From the NCBI GenBank assembly GCA_958295955.1, contig OY282420.1, forward strand, positions 1,316,435 through 1,380,434: 64,000 nucleotides of DNA, given 5' to 3'. Numbering within the stretch: the first letter of the stretch is position 1; each line of letters starts with the position of its first letter. Both the position numbers and the translations under genes were made by a program. The stretch comes from an uncultured Bryobacterales bacterium (GTDB lineage: Bacteria; Acidobacteriota; Terriglobia; Bryobacterales; UBA6623). Below, piece by piece: positions 27,839 to 44,298 of this stretch. The notes beneath the pieces were generated by a model, which worked only from the letters and a program-made list of their open reading frames with translations, was not told the origin of the DNA and made no database searches.

Positions 27839-28108
27839 ATGCCGGCAGACCCCACCGACGACGAACTCGTAACGGTTTTTTCCTCGCGAAGCCATCTCGC
27901 AACCATCGAAGCCGAGGTGATTTATGCGCTGCTCGACTCCGCGGGAATCTCCGCTTGGCTGGTGCGCGAAAACGTCGTCCAACAGCCGGTCGGCAAGGTG
28001 TCGATCAAGGTCGTTTCCGAATGCGCGGCCGATGCTTTGCAACTGATCGAATCCGCTCCGGCGGCATCCGCAAGCGACGGCGGCCACCCGGAGCTTGAAA
28101 ACTCATGA
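27839..28108 (+). CDS. DUF2007-like small protein
   Basis: 89 aa. The core ELVTVFSSRSHLATIEAEVIY, then LLDSAGISAWL and VSIKVVSECAADALQLIES follow the DUF2007 alpha/beta pattern (a putative signal-transducing domain related to the ferredoxin-like fold). The stop overlaps the next start as ATGA (28105-28108), so translation of the phosphatase gene is probably coupled to it. A weak TAAACT box (27819-27824) lies upstream. Confidence 0.7.
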   Translation: MPADPTDDELVTVFSSRSHLATIEAEVIYALLDSAGISAWLVRENVVQQPVGKVSIKVVSECAADALQLIESAPAASASDGGHPELENS

Positions 28109-29724
28109 GGAAATACGCATACCCGGCTTCCTGGCTGATCGTTTCCGCCGCGGCCGCGTGGTCAATCGTTTCGTTCCGCGTCCCGCCGCCGCCGCGGCTG
28201 GCCGTCGTCATTGTCGTGGACCAACTCCGCCCCGATTATCTGACCCGCTTTTCAGAGTTGTACGCGGGCGGTTTCAAAACGCTGCTCGCCAACGGCGCAA
28301 ACTTCACCAACGCGGCCTACAGGCACGCCTCGACCTATACGGCGTCAGGCCACGCTTCCGTTTCGACCGGCCTGCATCCCTCCACGCACGGCATGATCGG
28401 CAATTCCTGGTACGACCCGACTCAAGACGCCGTAGTCAACTGCGTTGCCGACGACGCATACGCCGCGGTCGGCGGCCCCGGAGAGCGCGCCTCCCCCAGG
28501 CCACTGCTCGCGGACACTCTCGGCGATCTGCTCAAGCGCAAGCACGGCGGCTCGAAAGTCTATGCGTTCTCATCCAAAGACCGTTCCGCGCTGATGCTGG
28601 CCGGCCGCGGCGCCGACGGGGCGTTCTGGTATTCGGAGGAGTGCGGTTGTTTCGTCACGTCATCGTATTACGAGAACGGCATGCCGCAATGGCTTGCCGC
28701 TTTCAACGCAACCCGGCCGACAGCAGAGTATGCCGGAAAGGTCTGGAAACGATTCCTCGCAGACCGCTCGCTCTACGAGAAGCTCGCCCGCGAAGACGCC
28801 TTTCCGACCGAAGCCGACGGCAAAGCCGTAACATTTCCCCATGCGCTACCGCAAGAAGACATCGCAACGCGGATTCAGATGACGCCGTTTGACGACGAGT
28901 TGACGCTGCAAGCCGCCCTCACCGCGCTCGACTCCGGCGAGTTGGGCACGGACGGAGAACCCGATCTGTTGGCCGTCGGCTTCTCCGCAACGGATCGTAT
29001 CGGCCATCTTTACGGCCCCTACAGCCAGGAAGCGATGGATCAAAACCTGCGTCTCGACCGTCTGCTGGCCGATCTGCTGGCGGCAATCGACCGCCGGGTC
29101 GGGATCGAGAAAACCGTGGTGGCGCTGACCGCCGACCACGGCGTCCCGCCCCTGGTCGAGGAAATGCAACGCCGCGGCGCAGCGGCGAGCCGCGTGAACT
29201 CCGACGAGTTCTGGCAGCGCGCGCGGGACGCGCTCAAGCAGCATTTCCCCGCTGCTCCCGACCTGGTTGCCTACGCGGGCGGCAACCGCCTCTACTGGCG
29301 CCTGCCGGCGTTCCGCAACGGCGCGGTCAAGCGGGCCGCGGCGGAAAAGTTTCTGGTGGAGCGGCTTCTCCGGCATCCGCTCGTTGCCGGCGTGTACACT
29401 GCGTCGGAGCTCGCCAATGCCTCCGACCGCGCCCCGGAAATGACACGGCTCTTCGCCAATGCGTATTTCCAGCGCCGCTCGCCGCATCTCATCGTCCACT
29501 TCAACGAATTCGTCTATCCGCGCAACGCGTTCGGCACGGCCCACGGCACTGCCTACCCCTACGACCGCGAGGTTCCCGTGCTGCTCTACGGCGCCGGGAT
29601 ACGCCCAGGGAATTCCGAGCGGCCGGCGGGGCCCGAAGATATCGCCCCGACCCTGGCCAAGATGCTCCGCCTCAAAATGGCGCAGGATCCCGACACGCGC
29701 ATTCTCTCGGAAGCGCTGCAATAA
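28105..29724 (+). CDS. secreted alkaline phosphatase-family protein, PafA/NPP-like
   Basis: 539 aa. After a signal peptide or anchor (about residues 1-26) comes the metal-binding VVIVVDQLRPDYL (Asp39), a nucleophile candidate Thr68 in ANFTNA, and TYTASGHASVSTGLHPSTHGMIGN, the pattern of PafA phosphatases and type I phosphodiesterase/nucleotide pyrophosphatases. The second metal half is VALTADHGVPPLVEE and GTAHGTAYPYDREVPVLLYG. It likely releases phosphate from organic monoesters in the periplasm. Coupled to the DUF2007 gene. Confidence 0.88.
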   Translation: MRKYAYPASWLIVSAAAAWSIVSFRVPPPPRLAVVIVVDQLRPDYLTRFSELYAGGFKTLLANGANFTNAAYRHASTYTASGHASVSTGLHPSTHGMIGNSWYDPTQDAVVNCVADDAYAAVGGPGERASPRPLLADTLGDLLKRKHGGSKVYAFSSKDRSALMLAGRGADGAFWYSEECGCFVTSSYYENGMPQWLAAFNATRPTAEYAGKVWKRFLADRSLYEKLAREDAFPTEADGKAVTFPHALPQEDIATRIQMTPFDDELTLQAALTALDSGELGTDGEPDLLAVGFSATDRIGHLYGPYSQEAMDQNLRLDRLLADLLAAIDRRVGIEKTVVALTADHGVPPLVEEMQRRGAAASRVNSDEFWQRARDALKQHFPAAPDLVAYAGGNRLYWRLPAFRNGAVKRAAAEKFLVERLLRHPLVAGVYTASELANASDRAPEMTRLFANAYFQRRSPHLIVHFNEFVYPRNAFGTAHGTAYPYDREVPVLLYGAGIRPGNSERPAGPEDIAPTLAKMLRLKMAQDPDTRILSEALQ

Positions 29725-29858
29725 CAGCCCGTGACAAAAGTCGCGCAAGCGTCGTTACGCGCCCGGGAATCGATGCAATATCGTGGCAACTCTCAAAGAA
29801 ATCGGCGCCTTGCTGTCCGCCCGGCAAGTAGGCAGGGGCGCGTAACCCTTCGCGCGGC

Positions 29859-29931
29859 GCCGCTGCGCGGGCCGGCAAGACGAACGACCGCAGGAACCCG
29901 CCGCGCCGCTTTCACCACGGACCGTTAAACG
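29859..29931 (-). repeat. copy A of a dispersed intergenic repeat
   Basis: Its left half (29859-29900) matches 11715-11756 at 34 of 42 positions. Its right end (29902-29931) matches 36404-36433 at 24 of 30. It abuts the ATG of the next gene. The family is seen by eye and needs alignment. Confidence 0.4.
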
Positions 29932-31074
29932 ATGCTCAGCCGCAAAGGAACGACTTTCCCTTCGGAATACTCGCGTTCGGTGGACGAGCGAACCGGGGCC
30001 GTCGTCCACCAACTCACGAATCATCCTTCGATCAACCATCCGACGTATTTTTTGCAGTCGTCGTTCACGGCGGATCAACGCGCGCTGATTTTCACGAGCT
30101 ACCGCACCGGCAGCGCGCAATTATTCGAAGTCGGCTTTCCCGACGGCGAGATCCGGCAGCTTACCTGCGATCAGGCGATCCATCCCTTCTCGCCCACGAT
30201 TGCCCCGGACGACAGCATTTTCTTCGTCAGGGGAGGGGGCGTTTGGCGCCTCGCCCGAGAAACCCTGGAAGAGATCGAAATCGCCTCGTTCGGCGGCCAA
30301 CTCGGCGAATGCTCGCTGACTCCGCTCGGCGATCGGTTCGTCGCCGCCTGCAAGCGCGGCAACGAATGGGGCTTGGCGCTCGGCGCCGTCGGCGGCGCGG
30401 AAACCCGGTTTATCCCCTTTCCGCGAACGATCATTCATCCCCAGTTCAACCCGGCCGATCCCGAGTGGATCGAGTTCGCCGCGGATCCCGCGCCGCGCAT
30501 GCACCGCGTGCGCATCGACGGCAGCGGGCTGGAATGCCTCTACGAGCACGGCAACGACGAGTTCATCGTCCACGAGACTTTCCTGGGGACGTCGTCAGAC
30601 CTGGTTTTCACCGTCTGGCCCCGCGCGCTCAAGCGCATGGACTGGAACAGCCGCCGCATCGCCGCCATCGCCGAGTTCAACGCTTGGCACATCACGCCGA
30701 ACCGTTCGGGAACCAAGATTCTCTGCGACACCGTCCATCCCGATATCGGCCTGCAACTAGTTGACGTTGCCGACGGGTCGCGGGAAACGATCTGCTACCC
30801 GCAAGCAACGTCGCAGGGCAGTCAGTGGAGAACGTCGCGCTACGCCGTCGCCGCGGATTGGCAGGCGGCCCGCAGCGCGGCGGAAAAAGCGCAATCGCTG
30901 AGTTGGATGGAAATGGCCGCCGACTCCGTTTACGGCCCACAGTGGACCCACCCGCACCCGTCGTTCTCGCCCGACGAAACGATGGTTGCTTTCGCCGGCG
31001 ACCGCAGCGGCCACGCGCAGGTCTATGTCGCCGAAATTCCAGGCGCTGCGCGGGAAGCAAGAAAAGGCGAGTGA
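29932..31074 (+). CDS. oligogalacturonate lyase-like protein (PL22)
   Basis: A 380-aa seven-bladed propeller related to TolB. Blades repeat patterns such as PFSPTIAPDDSIFFV and PSFSPDETMVAFAGDRSG. His253 (NAWHITPN) and Gln337, His340, His342 (PQWTHPHPSF) correspond to the four metal ligands I recall for Yersinia oligogalacturonate lyase, where His, Gln, His, His hold Mn(II). The reaction is beta-elimination on short unsaturated galacturonates from pectin, normally in the cytoplasm; no signal peptide is visible here, in agreement. The GTGA overlap with the following methylase gene is unusual for this family. Confidence 0.78.
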   Translation: MLSRKGTTFPSEYSRSVDERTGAVVHQLTNHPSINHPTYFLQSSFTADQRALIFTSYRTGSAQLFEVGFPDGEIRQLTCDQAIHPFSPTIAPDDSIFFVRGGGVWRLARETLEEIEIASFGGQLGECSLTPLGDRFVAACKRGNEWGLALGAVGGAETRFIPFPRTIIHPQFNPADPEWIEFAADPAPRMHRVRIDGSGLECLYEHGNDEFIVHETFLGTSSDLVFTVWPRALKRMDWNSRRIAAIAEFNAWHITPNRSGTKILCDTVHPDIGLQLVDVADGSRETICYPQATSQGSQWRTSRYAVAADWQAARSAAEKAQSLSWMEMAADSVYGPQWTHPHPSFSPDETMVAFAGDRSGHAQVYVAEIPGAAREARKGE

Positions 31075-32213
31075 ACCGGCAGCGCCAAATGCCGCTCCGG
31101 GCCGGCGCGCCGGTTGCGGAAGACCCCGACTACCTCTCGCAGCAACTCATTACGTACATCGGCAACAAGCGCGCGCTGCTGGGCCCCATCGGCAGCGCCG
31201 TTGCGCGCGTCAAGCGCCGCCTGGGCAAAGACCGCCTGCGCTGCTTCGACGCCTTCAGCGGATCCGGCGTCGTGTCCCGTTTGCTCAAGGGCCATGCGTC
31301 GCTGCTCGTCAGCAACGATCTGGAGGATTATGCGGCAGTCATAGGACGGTGCTATCTCGCCAACCGCAGCGCAATCGACATCGCTCTGCTGCGCGAAATC
31401 GTCAGCGACTTGAACGCGCGCGTACGAACCGAGCCACTCCCCGCGGGATTCATCGAAGAGCTGTATGCGCCCCGCGAAGAGTCGCGCATCGACAACAAAG
31501 ACCGGGTTTTCTATACCAAGAGCAACGCCCGGCGGCTGGATAACTACCGCAGAATGATCGCCGAGGCGCCGCGCAACCTGCGCGACTTCCTGCTGGCGCC
31601 GTTGCTGAGCGAGGCGTCGATCCACACCAACACCGCGGGCGTTTTCAAGGGTTTCTACAAGAACCGACAGACCCGCATCGGTCAGTTCGGCGGGAGCGGG
31701 TCGGACGCTCTGCTGCGCATCCTGGGGGATATCACCCTCAACCTGCCCGTCTTCAGCAACTTCGAGTGCGAGTACAAGGTGCTGTCAGAGGACGCCAACG
31801 CCGCCGCGCGGCGCCTTTCGGACCTGGACCTCGCCTATCTCGATCCGCCGTACAATCAGCATCCCTACGGGTCGAACTACTTCATGCTGAACCTGCTCGC
31901 CCGCTACGAGCGCCCGCGGCGCATCAGCCGGGTTGCGGGCATCCCCGCGGACTGGCGGCGGTCGGGATACAACGTGCGGGCCGAGTCCGCCGGACTGATG
32001 GCCGACCTGGCGCAACGCCTCGACGCGCGGTTTCTGCTCATCTCGTTCAACAACGAAGGCTTCATCCGGCCTGCCGCAATGCGCGCCATGCTCGACAAAG
32101 CGGGCTCGGTCGAGGTCGTCGAGATGCGGTACAACGCCTTCCGCGGCGGCAGGAGCTTCAAGAACCGCCCCGTTCACGTAACCGAGCAGCTCTTTTTAGT
32201 GGAAAGGAAGTAA
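31071..32213 (+). CDS. D12-class DNA adenine-N6 methyltransferase (solitary)
   Basis: 380 aa. Motif X QLITYIGNKRALL, SAM-binding motif I CFDAFSGSGVVSRLL and catalytic motif IV LAYLDPPYNQHPYGSNY occur in the D12 (Dam/alpha-class) order. The C-terminal part LISFNNEGFIRP and EVVEMRYNAFRGGRSFKNR also fits DNA methylases. The start is GTG at 31071, overlapping the previous stop; the in-frame ATG at 31089 is an alternative. No restriction endonuclease gene is near, so it is an orphan methylase or the surviving half of a type II system. Target site unknown. Confidence 0.88.
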   Translation: MNRQRQMPLRAGAPVAEDPDYLSQQLITYIGNKRALLGPIGSAVARVKRRLGKDRLRCFDAFSGSGVVSRLLKGHASLLVSNDLEDYAAVIGRCYLANRSAIDIALLREIVSDLNARVRTEPLPAGFIEELYAPREESRIDNKDRVFYTKSNARRLDNYRRMIAEAPRNLRDFLLAPLLSEASIHTNTAGVFKGFYKNRQTRIGQFGGSGSDALLRILGDITLNLPVFSNFECEYKVLSEDANAAARRLSDLDLAYLDPPYNQHPYGSNYFMLNLLARYERPRRISRVAGIPADWRRSGYNVRAESAGLMADLAQRLDARFLLISFNNEGFIRPAAMRAMLDKAGSVEVVEMRYNAFRGGRSFKNRPVHVTEQLFLVERK

Positions 32214-32254
32214 AGCGTCCGCGGTGTCTCAAGCCGACTGTCCGCTTACGGCCG

Positions 32255-33040
32255 TCATCCCCGCGCGCCGGGGAACAATCTCTCGAAATTCGCAGTCGTT
32301 CGCTCGGCGATCTCTTCGAAGTCGCAACCGACGACCTGCGCCAGCTTCTTGGCCGTTTCGACAACGAAGCGCGGTTCGTTGCGCCGAATCTTGCGATAGG
32401 GAACGGGGGTCAGATACGGCGAGTCGGTCTCGACCAGAAGCCTGTCCGGCGGAATCCAACGCGCCGTGTCGCGCAGATCCTGCGCTCGGTTGAACGTCAG
32501 GATACCGGCAAAGGAAATGTGAAAGCCCATGTCGAGGCAGCGCGCCGCCTGCTCGGAACCCGCCGAGAAACAGTGCATGACGCCGCCGAGCCCGGTTGCG
32601 CTCCAGTGCTCGTCGAGCAGCTCGAGCGTGTCGTCCCAGGAGTCGCGCACATGGATGACGATCGGCATTCCCCGTTCGGCGGCGATCTCCATTTGCGCGA
32701 CGAACGCCCTCTTCTGCGCCTCTCGCGGTGAATGGTCGTAGTGGTAATCGAGTCCGATCTCGCCGACGCCGACGACTTGCGGATGCAGGCACAACTCCGC
32801 GATTTCGTCCCCGGTCGATTGCTCGAATGCGGACGCATCGTGCGGATGCACGCCCACGCTCGCCGACACGTCCTCGTAGGCTTCGGCGAGCCGCACTGCG
32901 CAGGAAAGATCGGGAGGGCCGCTGCCTGTCCCGATCGCCAACATGCGGCCGACCCCGGCCTCGCGGGCGCGCGCGATAACCTCGGCGCGGTCCGCGTCGA
33001 ACGCGGGGCCGTCGAGGTGGCAGTGGGCATCGACCAACAC
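32255..33040 (-). CDS. tatD: TatD-family metal-dependent deoxyribonuclease
   Basis: A 261-aa TIM-barrel amidohydrolase. LVDAHCHLD gives the first two metal His, GEIGLDYHYDHSP the bridging Glu, PIVIHVRDSWDD and GGVMHCFSAG further His ligands, and LLVETDSPYLTPVPYRKIRRNEP the Asp and C-terminal signature. TatD enzymes act as 3'-5' exonucleases in DNA repair and turnover. The GTG start lies 6 nt after the metG stop, the common metG-tatD arrangement. Confidence 0.95.
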   Translation of the reverse strand: MLVDAHCHLDGPAFDADRAEVIARAREAGVGRMLAIGTGSGPPDLSCAVRLAEAYEDVSASVGVHPHDASAFEQSTGDEIAELCLHPQVVGVGEIGLDYHYDHSPREAQKRAFVAQMEIAAERGMPIVIHVRDSWDDTLELLDEHWSATGLGGVMHCFSAGSEQAARCLDMGFHISFAGILTFNRAQDLRDTARWIPPDRLLVETDSPYLTPVPYRKIRRNEPRFVVETAKKLAQVVGCDFEEIAERTTANFERLFPGARG

Positions 33041-33046
33041 CGGCCG

Positions 33047-35008
33047 TCAACTCAACCGGGCGCCGACCGGCGCGTCTTCCAGAAAACTCACCAGATACGG
33101 ATGACCGTGGTCGATCGACGCCGCGACCACCATGCCCTGCGACATACGGCCCATCATCTTGCGCGGTTTCAGGTTGGCGACGATCGCCACCTTGCGCCCC
33201 ACCAGCTCCTCGGGAGCGTAAGCGCCTGCAATCCCGGCCACAATCGAGCGCGGCTCGGCTTCGCCGATATCTACGGTCAGCGCGAGCAGCTTTTTCGATT
33301 TCGCCACCTTCTCGGCAGCCTTGACCAGTCCGACGCGCATATCGATTTTGACGAAATCGTCGAAGGCGACTTCGGGCGCGTCGATCGTAATCGCTGCGGG
33401 TTCGTCCGCGGCCGGCTTGCCGAAAATCGCGGCCTGTTCCTTGAGCGCTTCCTGTTCCAACTCTTCCATCCGCTTCACCGACTTCTCGACATCGAGACGC
33501 GGGAAAATGGCGTCCTGCCCGGCGAGCTTCACGTCCGGCTTGAGTCCTCCCCAGGCGAGATCGGCCAAGCGAAAATCGCGCAGCGGGACGGTCTCGCCGA
33601 GCATCGCCCAGATTTTCTGCGAAGCCTGCGGCAGCACGGGATGCGCCAGCGCGGCGCCGATGCGCAGCGCTGCGGCGGAGTTGTAGAGCGTCGCCGCAAG
33701 CTGCGCCTGCGAAGATTCATCCTTGGCCTTGGCCAGCGCCCAGGGCTTGTTCGCGACGATGTACTTGTCCACCGCGGCGAACAGGGACCAAATCGCTTCC
33801 AGCGCCCGCGAGAACTCGAACTTCGCGTAGCGCGCCGCGGCCTTTTCGATCGTCTCGGCCGCCAATGCCTGCAAACCGCCGTCGCCGCCTGCGCCGGCTG
33901 CAGGGACGAGGCCGCCGTGGAACTTGGCAATCATTGCCGCCGTCCGGCCGGCCAGGTTGCCGACGCCGTTGGCCAGATCGGAGTTGTAGCGCCCCACCAG
34001 CGCCTCAAAAGAAAAATTGCCGTCCTGCCCGAAAACGATTTCACGCAGCAAGTAATAGCGCAAACCTTCGATGCCGACAACTTTGTCGATCGGCCGCGCT
34101 CTCACGATGTTGCCCTTGGACTTCGACATCTTGCCGCCCTGAAAGATCAGCAGGCCGTGCGCCCAGACCTGCTTCGGCAACGGCAGTTCGGCCGCCATCA
34201 GGAAAGCAGGCCAGTAAACGGCATGGAAACGGACGATCTCTTTGCCGACCAGATGAACATCGACCGGCCACAACTTCTCCCAACGCTTGCGGGCTTCGCC
34301 CTCTTCGCCGTAGCCGACCGCGCTCATGTAAGTCGAAAGAGCATCGAACCAGACATAAAAGACGTGCGCCGGATCGTTCGGCAGCGGAATGCCCCATTGC
34401 AGCGTCGAACGGCTGATCGAAAGGTCTTTCAAACCGCCCCGCACGAACGAGAGGACCTCGTTCCGCCGCGAGTCGGGTTGGACGAAATCCGGCTGCGATT
34501 CGTAAAGCTCGATGAGCTTGTCCCGGTACGCCGAGAGCTTGAAGAAATAGTTTTCTTCGGTGACGGTCGTAATCATGGCCGGGTCGGCCTGCTCGGCTTC
34601 TTCGTCGGTCACGAACGCTTCGTCGCCGATGTGGTACTTGCCCGTGTACGAATCTTTGTAAATCGCTCCGTTTGCCAGGCAGCGCGAGAAGATCGCCCTG
34701 ACGGCCTTGGCATGACGGGGATCCGTTGTCCGGCGATAGAAATCGTATTCGAGCCCGAGATCGTTCCACTCGGCCCGAAACGCCTCAGAGACGCGGTCGG
34801 TGAACTCCCGCGGCGTCAGTCCGGCGGCCGCAGCCGATTTTTCGACCTTCTGGCCATGCTCGTCGGTGCCGGTGGTCAGATATGCTTCGTCGCCCATCAT
34901 GCGCCGGAAGCGCTTGATGGTATCGGCAACGATCGTCGTATAGGCGTGGCCGATATGGGGCGTCGCGTTGACGTAATAGATCGGCGTTGTCAGATAGTAC
35001 TTGCTCAT
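33047..35008 (-). CDS. metG: methionyl-tRNA synthetase
   Basis: A 653-aa class I synthetase. HIGH motif PHIGHAYTT near the N-terminus, KMSKSKGN in the catalytic core, an alpha-helical anticodon-binding domain with ANKPWALAK, and a C-terminal EMAP/tRNA-binding OB domain (KIDMRVGLVKAAEKV, GEAEPRSIVAGIAGAY). The connective insertion reads YTGKYHIGDEAFVTDEE with no Cys quartet, so this belongs to the type without a zinc knuckle. It charges initiator and elongator tRNA-Met. Confidence 0.97.
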   Translation of the reverse strand: MSKYYLTTPIYYVNATPHIGHAYTTIVADTIKRFRRMMGDEAYLTTGTDEHGQKVEKSAAAAGLTPREFTDRVSEAFRAEWNDLGLEYDFYRRTTDPRHAKAVRAIFSRCLANGAIYKDSYTGKYHIGDEAFVTDEEAEQADPAMITTVTEENYFFKLSAYRDKLIELYESQPDFVQPDSRRNEVLSFVRGGLKDLSISRSTLQWGIPLPNDPAHVFYVWFDALSTYMSAVGYGEEGEARKRWEKLWPVDVHLVGKEIVRFHAVYWPAFLMAAELPLPKQVWAHGLLIFQGGKMSKSKGNIVRARPIDKVVGIEGLRYYLLREIVFGQDGNFSFEALVGRYNSDLANGVGNLAGRTAAMIAKFHGGLVPAAGAGGDGGLQALAAETIEKAAARYAKFEFSRALEAIWSLFAAVDKYIVANKPWALAKAKDESSQAQLAATLYNSAAALRIGAALAHPVLPQASQKIWAMLGETVPLRDFRLADLAWGGLKPDVKLAGQDAIFPRLDVEKSVKRMEELEQEALKEQAAIFGKPAADEPAAITIDAPEVAFDDFVKIDMRVGLVKAAEKVAKSKKLLALTVDIGEAEPRSIVAGIAGAYAPEELVGRKVAIVANLKPRKMMGRMSQGMVVAASIDHGHPYLVSFLEDAPVGARLS

Positions 35009-39767: not shown

Positions 39768-39810
39768 CCGCTTGGACCGCCTCTACGAACGAGCACGAAA
39801 GATATCAGCC

Positions 39811-42630
39811 ATGCGAAGGTTCTCGACAGCAACTGCATCCCTTGTTTTTGGGGCAATTTTCGTTGCCTCGCTGCACGCCCAACTCACGGTCACGGTCGAA
39901 GATGCGAACGTGTTTCGCCAGCTCCGCCGCACCGGGGACACGTTGACGTTCGACTCCGAAGGCGTTAGGCAGACGGTCGAGGAACGTCTTGTGATCGCTT
40001 ACGAAAGCGACAGCGGTACTGCGGAAATCGAAGAACCGGAGATGGTCGGCTCTTCGACTTTTATGGTTTCGTCGGCGCGGTCGTTCCCGGTCATACTCGA
40101 TCCCGGAGAAACTCATGTTATTCGCGTTCGCTTCGTACCGACCGGCGTGGGGCCCTTCACGGGACAATTCCGTTTGCCGATCAAGATCAACCCCAGGGGC
40201 GCTGACAATTCTTTCCTCTTCAACTTGAGCGGGCGCGTCGCGGATTACAGTCTCAGCTTTCAGCTTCCGGGTGGCAACCAGACCGTGGTCGGCAACGGCG
40301 GCACGGTTTCGTTCGAAGACACGACCGTCGATACCACGATGGCGGCGACGGTAATCGCGACGAACCGCGGCAGCGGTCCGGGCACGCTCGAAACCGTCTC
40401 GATCGCCGGCGGCGGAATCTTCGAGCTCGGCGGACTGGGGCTTTTGCCCGCGACGATTCCACCCGAGCGGGATTTTCGCTTTCAGGTGCGCTTCACGCCG
40501 ACCGCCGCGCAGAGCTTCGGCGGCTCGCTAAGATTGGGCTTCGGCTCTGGGGCAAGCACGCTTCAACTCGCGGGCAGCGGCGTTGCCGCCGCATACAGTT
40601 ACCAGTTGACGACCTCCGATGGCCGAACCGCTTCGATTCCTGAAAACGGGACAATCTCCGTCGGCTCGACCCCCGTGGGAGAAGAAATCGCCGCGACCCT
40701 GACCGTGACCAATGCCGGCACGGCGGAAGGCAGGATCGGCAACATCACGATAACCGGCGACGGCTACAGCCTCTCCGACCGCCCGCTGCTGCCGGCGCTG
40801 CTCGATGTCGGCGAGAGTTTCACCATCACGATCAACCTGACTCCCGTTGAACCCGGACCCGCCACCGGCCAATTACGCATCGGCGATTCCACGTTCGACT
40901 TGAGCGGCGAGGGACTGGACACGATCCTTACCTACACGCTGACGACCTCCGACGGCCGAACCGCTTCGATTCCTGAAAACGGGACAATCTCCGTCGGCTC
41001 GACCCCCGTGGGAGAAGAAATCGCCGCGACCCTGACCGTGACCAATGCCGGCACGGCGGAAGGCAGGATCGGCAACATCACGATGACCGGCGACGGCTAC
41101 AGCCTCTCCGACCGCCCGCTGCTGCCGGCGCTGCTCGATGTCGGCGAGAGTTTCACCATCACGATCAACTTGACTCCCGTTGAACCCGGACCCGCCACCG
41201 GCCAATTACGCATCGGCGATTCCACGTTCGACTTGAGCGGCGAGGGACTGGACACGATCCTTACCTACACGCTGACGACCTCCGACGGCCGAACCGCTTC
41301 GATTCCTGAAAACGGGACGATCTCCGTCGGCTCGACCCCCGTGGGAGAAGAAATCGCCGCGACCCTGACCGTGACCAATGCCGGCACGGCGGAAGGCAGG
41401 ATCGGCAACATCACGATAACCGGCGACGGCTACAGCCTCTCCGACCGCCCGCTGCTGCCGGCGCTGCTCGATGTCGGCGAGAGTTTCACCATCACGATCA
41501 ACTTGACTCCCGTTGAACCCGGACCCGCCACCGGCCAATTACGCATCGGCGATTCCACGTTCGACTTGAGCGGCGAGGGACTGGGCGCGATTCTCACCTA
41601 CACGCTTGTCGGCGCCGACGGACCGAAACAGATCGAGCCGCGCGACACGATCGTATTCCCGCAGACCCAAGTCGGCGACGCGTCCGAGGTGACTTTGCAA
41701 ATCTCCAACTCCGGCAACGAAAGCGAAACGCTTTCCGGCATTGGAGTCGGCGCAGGGGCGTTCTCGCTGCGCAACTTACCGGAGCTGCCGTCCCCGTTGC
41801 AGGCGGACCAGACGATCACCTTCGCCATTGTCTTCGAACCCGAGAGGCTGGGCCCGCAGAGCGCAATGTTGGCGGTTAACGCCGCAAACTTCACGCTCAG
41901 CGGAGTCGGTGAAAACGTGTCCGATCTGCCGGCCGTGAGTTTCTCGACATCGGGCGGAACGGTCGCTGCGGCCGATTCCGTTCCGATCAGCTTGAGCATC
42001 GCCGAAGCCTTCCCTGTCGATCTTAAAGGCGTGCTGCGCCTGACCTTCGACACGGAGGTGTTTTCGAATGCCCCGACGATTCAGTTTTCCACCGGCGGGC
42101 GCAATGCGTCGTTCCGGATTCCGAAAGGCCGAACGGAAGCAATCTTCCCCGGAAACCTGACGACCAATCCTTTCTTGACGGGAACCGTTGCGGGCACGAT
42201 TACCGCCTCGGCAACGTTCGCCACCGAAGCCGGCTCAGTGGACATTACTCCGGACACGATCCCTGAAGTGGTCTTCACCGTCACCAAAGCGGCGCCCTTG
42301 CTGCGAAGCATGACCTTGGGCTCCACCGGGCAGGGCCGCTTCAGCGTTCTGGTAACCGGATTCGCAACCTCGCGCACCGTCAGCCAATTGCAGATCGCCT
42401 TCGCCGGCGTCACCGGCGCGGACATCACGACGCCGAATCTGACCGCCGATGTCTCGGACGCGTTCACCCTGTATTACGGCAGCAATCAGTCAGCGAACTT
42501 CGGCAGCCTGTTCACGGCAACGGTCGCCTTCACTGTCAATGAAGGCGAATTCGAGGATCTGAGTACGGTCACGATTACGGCGACGAACGAGCTCGGTCAA
42601 TCGAATCCCGTCAGCCTGACGTTGAATTAG
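39811..42630 (+). CDS. large exported ASH/choice-of-anchor D repeat protein
   Basis: 939 aa. Signal peptide residues 1-24 (ends SLHAQ). Then a first Ig-like region, and a series of about 110-aa ASH/HYDIN-like domains marked by VGSTPVGEEIAATLTVTNAG and a closing LRIGDSTFDLSGEGL strand. Three consecutive domains (residues about 266-598) are nearly identical in DNA as well as protein; the flanking domains are diverged relatives. The C-terminal 300 residues are further beta-rich Ig-like segments ending in LGQSNPVSLTLN. Probably extracellular and adhesive or scaffold-like. The ATG at 39811 is chosen because it begins the signal peptide. Confidence 0.8.
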   Translation: MRRFSTATASLVFGAIFVASLHAQLTVTVEDANVFRQLRRTGDTLTFDSEGVRQTVEERLVIAYESDSGTAEIEEPEMVGSSTFMVSSARSFPVILDPGETHVIRVRFVPTGVGPFTGQFRLPIKINPRGADNSFLFNLSGRVADYSLSFQLPGGNQTVVGNGGTVSFEDTTVDTTMAATVIATNRGSGPGTLETVSIAGGGIFELGGLGLLPATIPPERDFRFQVRFTPTAAQSFGGSLRLGFGSGASTLQLAGSGVAAAYSYQLTTSDGRTASIPENGTISVGSTPVGEEIAATLTVTNAGTAEGRIGNITITGDGYSLSDRPLLPALLDVGESFTITINLTPVEPGPATGQLRIGDSTFDLSGEGLDTILTYTLTTSDGRTASIPENGTISVGSTPVGEEIAATLTVTNAGTAEGRIGNITMTGDGYSLSDRPLLPALLDVGESFTITINLTPVEPGPATGQLRIGDSTFDLSGEGLDTILTYTLTTSDGRTASIPENGTISVGSTPVGEEIAATLTVTNAGTAEGRIGNITITGDGYSLSDRPLLPALLDVGESFTITINLTPVEPGPATGQLRIGDSTFDLSGEGLGAILTYTLVGADGPKQIEPRDTIVFPQTQVGDASEVTLQISNSGNESETLSGIGVGAGAFSLRNLPELPSPLQADQTITFAIVFEPERLGPQSAMLAVNAANFTLSGVGENVSDLPAVSFSTSGGTVAAADSVPISLSIAEAFPVDLKGVLRLTFDTEVFSNAPTIQFSTGGRNASFRIPKGRTEAIFPGNLTTNPFLTGTVAGTITASATFATEAGSVDITPDTIPEVVFTVTKAAPLLRSMTLGSTGQGRFSVLVTGFATSRTVSQLQIAFAGVTGADITTPNLTADVSDAFTLYYGSNQSANFGSLFTATVAFTVNEGEFEDLSTVTITATNELGQSNPVSLTLN
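40607..41605 (+). repeat. three in-frame 333-bp tandem repeats
   Basis: Units 40607-40939, 40940-41272 and 41273-41605 each encode one 111-aa ASH domain. I can see only a few base differences between copies (for example ATAACC versus ATGACC, and ACAATC versus ACGATC); the last copy diverges from 41585. Such near identity implies recent duplication or ongoing recombination. Confidence 0.92.
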
Positions 42631-42658: not shown

Positions 42659-43549
42659 GTGAAACCGCAGCCGCCGGTAACGCGTTACGCGCCCAGCCCG
42701 ACGGGACGGCTCCACCTGGGCCACGCCGCGCATGCGCTCTACGTATGGGGGCTGGCCGACTTGTTGGGCGCGCGCGTGCTGCTGCGCATCGAAGACCACG
42801 ACCGGCAGCGCTGCCGCACGGAATACGAGGCGGCGATCCTCGAAGACCTGGACTGGCTGGGCTTCGAACCCGAGAACGCGGTAACGCCGGACTACCGCCA
42901 AAGCGACTCGGACGCGGTTTACAGGGAAGCGCTCGGCAGGCTGCGGCGCGGTCATAACGTCTATCGCTGCGTCTGCACGCGGAAAGACCTCGCCGCTCAT
43001 TGCCCGGCAAGCGGGACGGGCGAACGCATCTACGGAGGGCGCTGCCGCGCGGCGAACCATCCGCGCGGCGCCCCTCACGGCCTGCGGCTGGAATGGGGCG
43101 GCGGCGAAGAATCGTTCGAAGACGGCTTCCTCGGCCCGCGCAAACAAGAGCCCGCGCGGCAATGCGGCGACCTGTTGCTCAGAGACCGTCACGGCCAGTG
43201 GACCTACCAGTTTGCGGTCGCCGTGGACGACATGCGCCACGGCGTCAATCTGATCGTGCGCGGCGAGGACCTGCTCGATTCCACCGGACGGCAGATCCGC
43301 TTGGCGCGTCTGTTGGGCCGCGCCGCGCCGGCGCGCTTCTATCATCACCCGCTGGTGACCGACGCCGCGGGCGTCAAGCTCGGCAAGAAGCAGCGCTCGC
43401 CCGCGTTGGGGGAGCTGCGCGCGGACGGTATCCGCCCGGAGAAAGTCTTGGGGGAAGCGGCGCGGATGGTCGGACTTCCGGTTGAAGCAAGACCGCTCGA
43501 GCGCCTGGAAATCGCCGCGACGATCGCCGCCCGCCACGGCATGGCCTAA
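42659..43549 (+). CDS. gluQ: glutamyl-Q tRNA(Asp) synthetase
   Basis: 296 aa. RYAPSPTGRLHLGHAAHALY contains the class I HIGH-type motif; VLLRIEDHDRQRC and FAVAVDDMRHGVNLIVRGEDLLDST are the GlxRS core; VKLGKKQ replaces KMSKS as in YadB proteins. There is no anticodon-binding domain, which distinguishes GluQ-RS from GltX. Cysteines CVCTRKDLAAHC and YGGRC probably bind zinc. It attaches glutamate to queuosine in tRNA-Asp. Start GTG at 42659; the stop overlaps the convergent next gene (CTAA). Confidence 0.93.
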   Translation: MKPQPPVTRYAPSPTGRLHLGHAAHALYVWGLADLLGARVLLRIEDHDRQRCRTEYEAAILEDLDWLGFEPENAVTPDYRQSDSDAVYREALGRLRRGHNVYRCVCTRKDLAAHCPASGTGERIYGGRCRAANHPRGAPHGLRLEWGGGEESFEDGFLGPRKQEPARQCGDLLLRDRHGQWTYQFAVAVDDMRHGVNLIVRGEDLLDSTGRQIRLARLLGRAAPARFYHHPLVTDAAGVKLGKKQRSPALGELRADGIRPEKVLGEAARMVGLPVEARPLERLEIAATIAARHGMA

Positions 43550-44298
43550 CGCCGGCGGCGATAGTCCTGCGTCGCGATGCGCACTTCGCGGCAGACTTCG
43601 CAGAGCCGCGAAACCGCCCGCGCTCCGATGCGGTCGGCGAGGCTGTCGTTCACCCTGGGACGGCTGCCGATCTCGTCGCTCAAGACGACGTTATGCCCCA
43701 ACTCGACCACCGGCAGGTTGGTGGTGACGATGAGCGCCTTCTCTTCGTTGTAGCGGTGGTTGATGATCGTCGCTACCGTATCGAGCACCCAATCGGTCAC
43801 GCGGTGCGCGCCCAGATCGTCCAGCAGCAGCACCTCGGTTTCGAGCGCGGCGCGGTAAGTTTCGCGGCTGCTCCCCCCTGCCGCCGGGTCGTAGCCCTCG
43901 CGAATTTTCTGCAACAGCGTCTGGTAGTCGAAAAAAATACAGTCGAAGCCGCGCTCGGCCAGCCGTTTCAGCGCGGCAACCGCCAGATGCGTTTTGCCCA
44001 CTCCCGGGGAGCCCTGAAACAGCAGTCCGCGTTTGGGACCGAAAGGGTATTCTTCCGCGAATTTCTTCGCGGCGCTCATCGCGCCGGTCAGCAGGTTGTA
44101 TTCGATCGCGTTTTCGTAGGGGGTTCCCGCGCGAAAATTGTCGAAGCCGACCGCGGCGAATTTGCGCGGCAAGCCGAGCTTGCGGACACGTTCGTCGGGG
44201 CCGACATCGCCGCTGCAACCGCAGCGGACGACGCCGCCGTTTTCGGCGTGCTTCCAGCCGGCGCCTTGACAGGCAGGGCAATCAGGATTGGCAGCCAC
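43546..44298 (-). CDS. DnaC/IstB-like AAA+ ATPase with N-terminal zinc-binding motif
   Basis: 250 aa. A CPACQGAGW ... RCGC cluster at the N-terminus suggests a zinc knuckle. The AAA+ core has Walker A LFQGSPGVGKTH, Walker B EVLLLDDLGAH and a sensor ALIVTTNLP. The family contains DnaC-like helicase loaders and IstB transposition helpers. No transposase lies next to it, so a chromosomal helicase-loader role is more likely. Start GTG at 44298 follows GGAGGG by 8 nt. Confidence 0.85.
   Translation of the reverse strand: MAANPDCPACQGAGWKHAENGGVVRCGCSGDVGPDERVRKLGLPRKFAAVGFDNFRAGTPYENAIEYNLLTGAMSAAKKFAEEYPFGPKRGLLFQGSPGVGKTHLAVAALKRLAERGFDCIFFDYQTLLQKIREGYDPAAGGSSRETYRAALETEVLLLDDLGAHRVTDWVLDTVATIINHRYNEEKALIVTTNLPVVELGHNVVLSDEIGSRPRVNDSLADRIGARAVSRLCEVCREVRIATQDYRRRR

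Follow-up and report, generated by a model that had tools for sequence, protein, structure and literature searches.

A solitary adenine methylase gene of an EcoRI-like lineage, probably acquired horizontally, behind a resident PL22 lyase gene in a Bryobacterales bacterium

Introduction

Why do a putative pectin-catabolic gene and a DNA adenine methylase gene share four bases? The question is raised by a 64,000-nucleotide stretch of DNA from an uncultured Bryobacterales bacterium (assembly GCA_958295955.1, contig OY282420.1, positions 1,316,435 to 1,380,434), hereafter the window. An earlier note, made from the letters of the window, took the two genes as a likely operon and left the choice between a recent insertion of the methylase gene and methylation tied to this locus. 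Passages of PMC6471742 report earlier work that found degraded endonucleases next to a number of orphan methylases, and cite the view that orphan methylases derive more often from large mobile elements than from decay of a pair.

Results

A lyase gene and a methylase gene share a GTGA overlap

The features of the locus are collected in Table 1. The pair described by the earlier note was recovered: both reading frames are present and both proteins match their Pfam families above the cut-off, the first as Pectate_lyase22 (PF14583, 5.5e-16, 58.7 bits vs. 30) and the second as MethyltransfD12 (PF02086, 9.6e-18, 65.3 bits vs. 22).

Table 1. Features of the lyase-methylase locus (window coordinates)
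Feature	Position	Strand	Basis and remarks
Type I phosphodiesterase / nucleotide pyrophosphatase-family gene	28105-29724	+	PF01663 1.6e-40; upstream of the lyase gene in ten relatives too
PL22 (oligogalacturonate-lyase-type) beta-propeller gene	29932-31074	+	PF14583; 380 aa, ATG start; resident of the locus
GTGA overlap, 4 bases	31071-31074	+	possible methylase GTG start and lyase TGA stop
D12-class N6-adenine DNA methyltransferase gene	31071-32213	+	PF02086, PDLC03257, relatives, Dam-like fold; solitary, EcoRI-like Type II lineage
Inferred inserted stretch, lyase stop to TatD stop	31075-32254	.	1,180 bp
TatD-type DNase gene, convergent, bounds the insertion	32255-33040	-	PF01026 2.1e-83; synteny
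Methionyl-tRNA synthetase (MetG) gene, next resident	33047-35008	-	PF09334; synteny

The GTG at 31071 is the likely, not the proven, start of the methylase, because the reading frame is also open further upstream, to a GTG at 30825 of the window sequence, and an in-frame ATG at 31089 is an alternative start. The first residues of the protein are not conserved among relatives, and, judged by eye, the nearest of these (L033, 80% protein identity) becomes similar in DNA sequence near 31083; the overlap may thus have arisen at the junction. Four-base gene overlaps are common. One other of 17 successive same-strand pairs has one (27839-28108/28105-29724), the pairs being taken from a 31-gene window list that skips some reading frames. 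The upstream member of that pair, an 89-codon reading frame that runs into the start of the phosphodiesterase gene, has no Pfam match.

In a profile search the lyase matched the structures 3pe7 and 3c5m (3.4e-24 and 4e-23, respectively). Its QxxHxH motif (Q337, H340 and H342), which we take to be the metal-binding motif of PL22 proteins, aligns with that of 3c5m and 3pe7 and is invariant in the 7 sequences of an alignment from which L027 and L030 were left out. Activity on oligogalacturonate is putative, given a poor alignment of the middle part of the protein with the solved PL22 structures. Of 61 genomes of the order, 41, its own among them, have a strong match to the lyase (E 2e-61 or better), 11 more have weak matches only and 9 have none at E 0.001. 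The 61 genomes are its own and 60 relatives, with no other member of its genus among them. A Pfam scan of 38 window proteins revealed no other family that we know as pectin-specific. Among 30 genes of the window compared for codon usage, the most atypical encodes a 952-codon protein (39772-42630) with ASH/HYDIN/CARDB-type repeats.

The methylase gene lies between two convergent resident genes

The order phosphodiesterase-lyase-TatD-MetG, with no methylase gene in it, was found in 10 genomes (L005, L009-L017), none of which carries the methylase elsewhere. Since all ten are members of a single sister genus (g5) in the family, they count as one observation. Four further lyase loci of the family (L004, L006, L007 and L008) showed no window neighbour genes within the fetched flanks of 1.5 kb. 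The distance from the lyase stop to the TatD stop is 1,180 bp in the window vs. -73 to +22 bp at the ten empty sites, and on account of this difference an insertion of the methylase gene between two convergent resident genes, lyase and TatD, explains the locus best. The gap between the phosphodiesterase and lyase genes measures 207 bp here (29725-29931) vs. about 40 bp between the matches in one syntenic relative (L010).

An 8-bp sequence, CGAAATTC (31032-31039 and 32284-32291), is the only direct repeat of at least 7 bp between the two flanks searched, and it was rejected as a target-site duplication because both copies lie within lyase and TatD codons that relatives also have; the flank comparison revealed no other candidate duplication. 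Transposon insertion was likewise set aside, since no transposase or integrase family was present among the 38 scanned window proteins, in which an IstB-like ATPase match (43546-44298) is the only hint of a mobile element. Codon usage and G+C content of the methylase gene are host-like, so that odd composition does not argue for a recent arrival.

Two suspicions of the earlier note can be divided on this evidence. That the methylase gene was inserted is supported by the ten methylase-free loci, all of one genus, but that this happened recently is not, given the host-like composition and a sample of 61 genomes with no other from its genus. Of the refuting case named in the note, non-adjacency of the pair holds in the relatives examined, but insertion looks a likelier origin of the overlap than a local deletion.

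The methylase is conserved and has a predicted Dam-like fold

The PADLOC model of a Type II methyltransferase (PDLC03257) matches residues 17-379 of the 380 residues of the methylase at 2.1e-106. Within FSGSG (residues 62-66), F62, G64, S65 and G66 are invariant in 12 sequences, as is DPPY (258-261); we take these to be the SAM-binding FxGxG-type motif and the catalytic motif. Of 108 columns conserved to 95% or more, the protein departs from a single one, with A289 where 81 of 81 others have S. Its structure model (pLDDT 79.1, pTM 0.82) has Dam structures at ranks 1-5 of its fold matches (for instance E. coli Dam, PDB 4rtm; E 3e-6 to 1e-5), a moderate match with TM by target of 0.51-0.56 and an rmsd of about 9-10 Å. 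The methylase differs from Dam in sequence, with 13-14% identity and 14.1 bits to the Dam family model, whose cut-off is 114.85 bits. The retention of 107 of the 108 conserved columns and the Dam-like fold of the model suggest that it is probably an active N6-adenine methylase. The genome carries one copy of it. Three further D12-class methylase genes lie on contig 1 of the same genome (334203, 879252 and 4191599).

Relatives of the methylase are paired with an EcoRI-family endonuclease or stand alone

At least 562 candidate stretches in the genome collection encode relatives of the methylase, and the best 80 of these (51-80% identity) were kept. They come from many phyla, the record titles including Planctomycetota, Dehalococcoidia, Poribacteria, Spirochaetes, Armatimonadetes and others. 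Directly downstream of the methylase gene, 29 of the 80 loci have an EcoRI-family endonuclease gene or a remnant of one; 40 have none, with 900 bp or more of sequence flanking the methylase on either side, and the remaining 11 run out at a contig edge too soon for classification.

The downstream endonucleases match PF02963 above its cut-off in 4 of 4 cases scanned, and the one searched against the PDB matches EcoRI at 4e-9. Among 25 aligned endonucleases of 225 aa or more, the EcoRI residues D91, E111, K113, N141, A142 and E144 are kept in all, R145 in 24 and R200 in 23, and the position of M137 is Q throughout; we take these nine positions to be catalytic or recognition residues. The EcoRI system itself (E. 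coli plasmid, L120), with which the relatives' endonucleases share PF02963 and these active-site and recognition residues, differs in that its methylase belongs to PF13651 (EcoRI_methylase) rather than D12 and in that the endonuclease gene precedes the methylase gene. A homology of the window methylase to M.EcoRI was rejected (E 0.65, no significant similarity, different families). An EcoRI-family endonuclease that goes with a D12 methylase in place of the M.EcoRI family is a mild oddity. In L034, L036, L040, L041, L045, L113 and others the methylase gene comes first and the endonuclease gene second. The same kind of pair lies on a 6 kb plasmid of Paracoccus marcusii (NZ_CP065909.1), where the D12 methylase, annotated as DNA adenine methylase, is 47% identical to that of the window over nearly its whole length; that pair differs from the window in its setting on a plasmid and in an endonuclease gene directly downstream, annotated as 'EcoRI family type II restriction endonuclease'. 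We noticed no description of this lineage in the titles and abstract openings of the literature searched, and it may well be catalogued in REBASE.

The window contains no EcoRI-family endonuclease gene. None was found in the genome of the window by a protein search run without a control of its own, and a search by Pfam family found none in the 61 genomes of the order, its own included, while 8 of 8 paired genomes used as a positive control were recovered. Likewise, 41 genomes without an intact endonuclease neighbour (39 classed as solitary, L033 at a contig edge and L037 with a remnant; L064 was left out) have no EcoRI-family gene anywhere, with the same 8 paired controls all positive. The earlier claim that the methylase lacks a restriction partner thus holds for a partner of the EcoRI family, the one that its relatives have. 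Since close relatives are paired with an endonuclease and the genome of the window has none, the gene is classed as a solitary methylase of a restriction-modification lineage.

No conserved neighbour other than the endonuclease was seen: the next flank clusters reach at most 7 of the 80 loci and include reverse-strand reading frames inside the endonuclease gene. Nine reading frames upstream of other solitary methylases were scanned, and they encode glutamine synthetase, elongation factor G, glucose dehydrogenase, an AhpC/TPR protein, DUF4345, DUF5692 (twice) and two proteins without a match. A same-strand reading frame of at least 180 aa ends 20-150 bp before methylase codon 17 in 9 of 38 solitary and 8 of 21 paired loci, once loci with under 1,200 bp upstream are left out.

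Solitary and paired forms are mixed on the methylase tree

Positions on the methylase tree do not follow taxonomy. On a 71-row tree, the solitary label (solitary vs. paired-or-broken) requires 18 changes, at least 8 of which are forced by well-supported branches; counting solitary vs. paired, with unclassed rows left out, gives 17. The label is weakly clustered: with unclassed rows left out, 8 of 500 shuffles of the 71-row tree came as low. A tree on which the 11 unclassed rows were taken as non-solitary gave 25 changes, a value that 86 of 500 shuffles matched or undercut. Both trees were built by a quick method and contain two long rows, and rows L039, L043 and L112 were left out before the counts. 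The window row falls within a starred set of four, with three solitary members and one that is paired or broken.

The absence of a partner could also have arisen on the spot, if a whole EcoRI-like pair had been inserted and its endonuclease gene then deleted in place. Three relatives (L037, L072 and L073) have an endonuclease remnant or a stop-split endonuclease behind the methylase, assembly error being possible there, and together with the at least 8 well-supported changes of label they lend this course some credit. Against it, the TatD stop lies just 41 bp beyond that of the methylase, no remnant was detected, and the window does not avoid GAATTC, though paired loci do not avoid it either. 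We regard deletion in place as possible but unlikely.

The likely target is GAATTC or RAATTY

Because the partner endonucleases of its relatives belong to the EcoRI family, the methylase would be expected to modify GAATTC or the looser RAATTY. Counts of GAATTC do not fall below expectation: 27 paired loci have 80 sites vs. 75.4 expected, 40 solitary loci have 123 vs. 120.8 and the window has 17 vs. 15.1. The whole genome holds 1,110 such sites. Avoidance of GAATTC, considered as proof of the target, was thus discarded, and the genome statistics lend the proposed target no support.

Members of PF02086 have many specificities, and recognition of some other sequence is a second reading that we hold to be possible rather than probable. 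The lack of GAATTC avoidance in paired loci and the absence of sequence similarity to M.EcoRI speak for it. The EcoRI catalytic and recognition residues kept by the relatives' endonucleases speak against it, as does a D12 methylase of Acinetobacter baumannii (L119:3944-5236), 33% identical to that of the window. This gene is likely aamA, and like the window gene it is solitary and shares a four-base overlap with a metabolic gene, in its case ribD, with riboflavin synthase next; the low identity marks the difference between the two. AamA (A1S_0222) is, in passages of PMC10483419, an orphan N6-adenine methylase that acts on GAATTC in vitro and was later assigned TTTRAATTYAAA by methylome analysis. 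AamA is also reported to affect the expression of many genes. For A. baumannii strains with aamA homologues, an excerpt of the methylome study PMC10287943 reports that GAATTC methylation was not detected, only longer related motifs.

The proposed RAATTY target has a counterpart in a second system. M.CjeNI and CtsM of Campylobacter, presumably the same gene, are likened to the window methylase by their reported mark and not by sequence comparison. According to part of PMC3526280, the target of the adenine methylase M.CjeNI was first reported as GAATTC and then shown to be RAATTY. Competent Campylobacter favours DNA with its own CtsM mark for uptake, as stated in sections of PMC8627207 and PMC8468864, the latter of which prints the motif as RATTY. 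Unlike for Campylobacter CtsM, we found no evidence in the genome of the window that a methylation mark is used for competence.

Neither an ancestral order nor a link to the lyase is likely to account for the pair

An order in which the methylase gene is ancestral behind the lyase gene and was lost from the relatives is very improbable. The ten methylase-free loci would permit it in so far as they are one observation; however, 59 of the 60 relatives of the order have no match to the methylase and the remaining one has a distant match of 25%, and its nearest relatives in the collection, the best 80 of at least 562, come from other phyla.

Co-option of the methylase to regulate the lyase or its operon is the least credible reading, with hardly any weight left to it: the GTGA overlap makes co-expression of the two genes likely, and GAATTC occurs at 29506 and 29610 inside the phosphodiesterase gene and one RAATTY-type site, AAATTC, at 31034 in the lyase 3' end, but a methylase match was found in 0 of 29 lyase loci (L004-L032, about 1.5 kb flanks) and a lyase match in 0 of 80 methylase loci in the flanking DNA examined, no GAATTC lies between 29725, past the phosphodiesterase stop, and the end of the lyase gene, the window has GAATTC near the expected number (17 vs. 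15.1), and the other solitary copies sit behind other genes, as the nine scanned upstream frames indicate. A functional coupling of lyase and methylase was rejected on the absence of the pair elsewhere and the variety of genes in front of other solitary copies. The suggestion that methylation may be tied to this locus finds no support either in the occurrence of the pair or in the stretch free of GAATTC, and the comparison of related genomes that had been proposed turned up the adjacency nowhere else.

Discussion

On these data the gene behind the lyase most likely encodes a solitary Type II N6-adenine methyltransferase of an EcoRI-like lineage, and came by horizontal transfer to lodge between convergent genes; we see no specific link to pectin use. 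We propose that (i) the methylase gene was acquired horizontally from a family whose members are partly the modification half of an EcoRI-like pair and partly stand alone; (ii) it would have lodged in the short interval that separates the resident lyase and TatD genes, as synteny with one sister genus suggests; (iii) it is intact, and by its conservation probably active; (iv) it probably owes its expression to the lyase message, on which the GTGA overlap would make it a passenger; and (v) the genome is then probably methylated at GAATTC or a RAATTY-type site, as the endonucleases of the relatives would predict. Loss of the endonuclease may have preceded or followed the transfer. The methylase itself would exert no restriction, and its likely benefit would be protection against EcoRI-like enzymes on incoming DNA; alternatively, its mark may have been domesticated. 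The methylase fits a known kind, the solitary methylases left from, or spread apart from, restriction-modification systems.

The pairing of lyase and methylase looks like an accident of the landing site. Tempting as an operon reading is, it needs correction: the shared bases most likely tell where a mobile methylase came to lie and not that the two genes have a common function. As a solitary methylase inserted in one lineage, the find is for the most part ordinary.

The methylase family, with paired, broken and solitary forms in one tree, is a good case for restriction-modification pairs turning solitary. A wider suggestion, speculative and improbable as it stands, is that the paired lineage repeatedly sheds its endonuclease and that the lone methylase spreads across phyla and lodges behind housekeeping genes, perhaps as immunity to EcoRI-like enzymes. 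If this were true, the copy in the window would be one single-gene epigenetic passenger.
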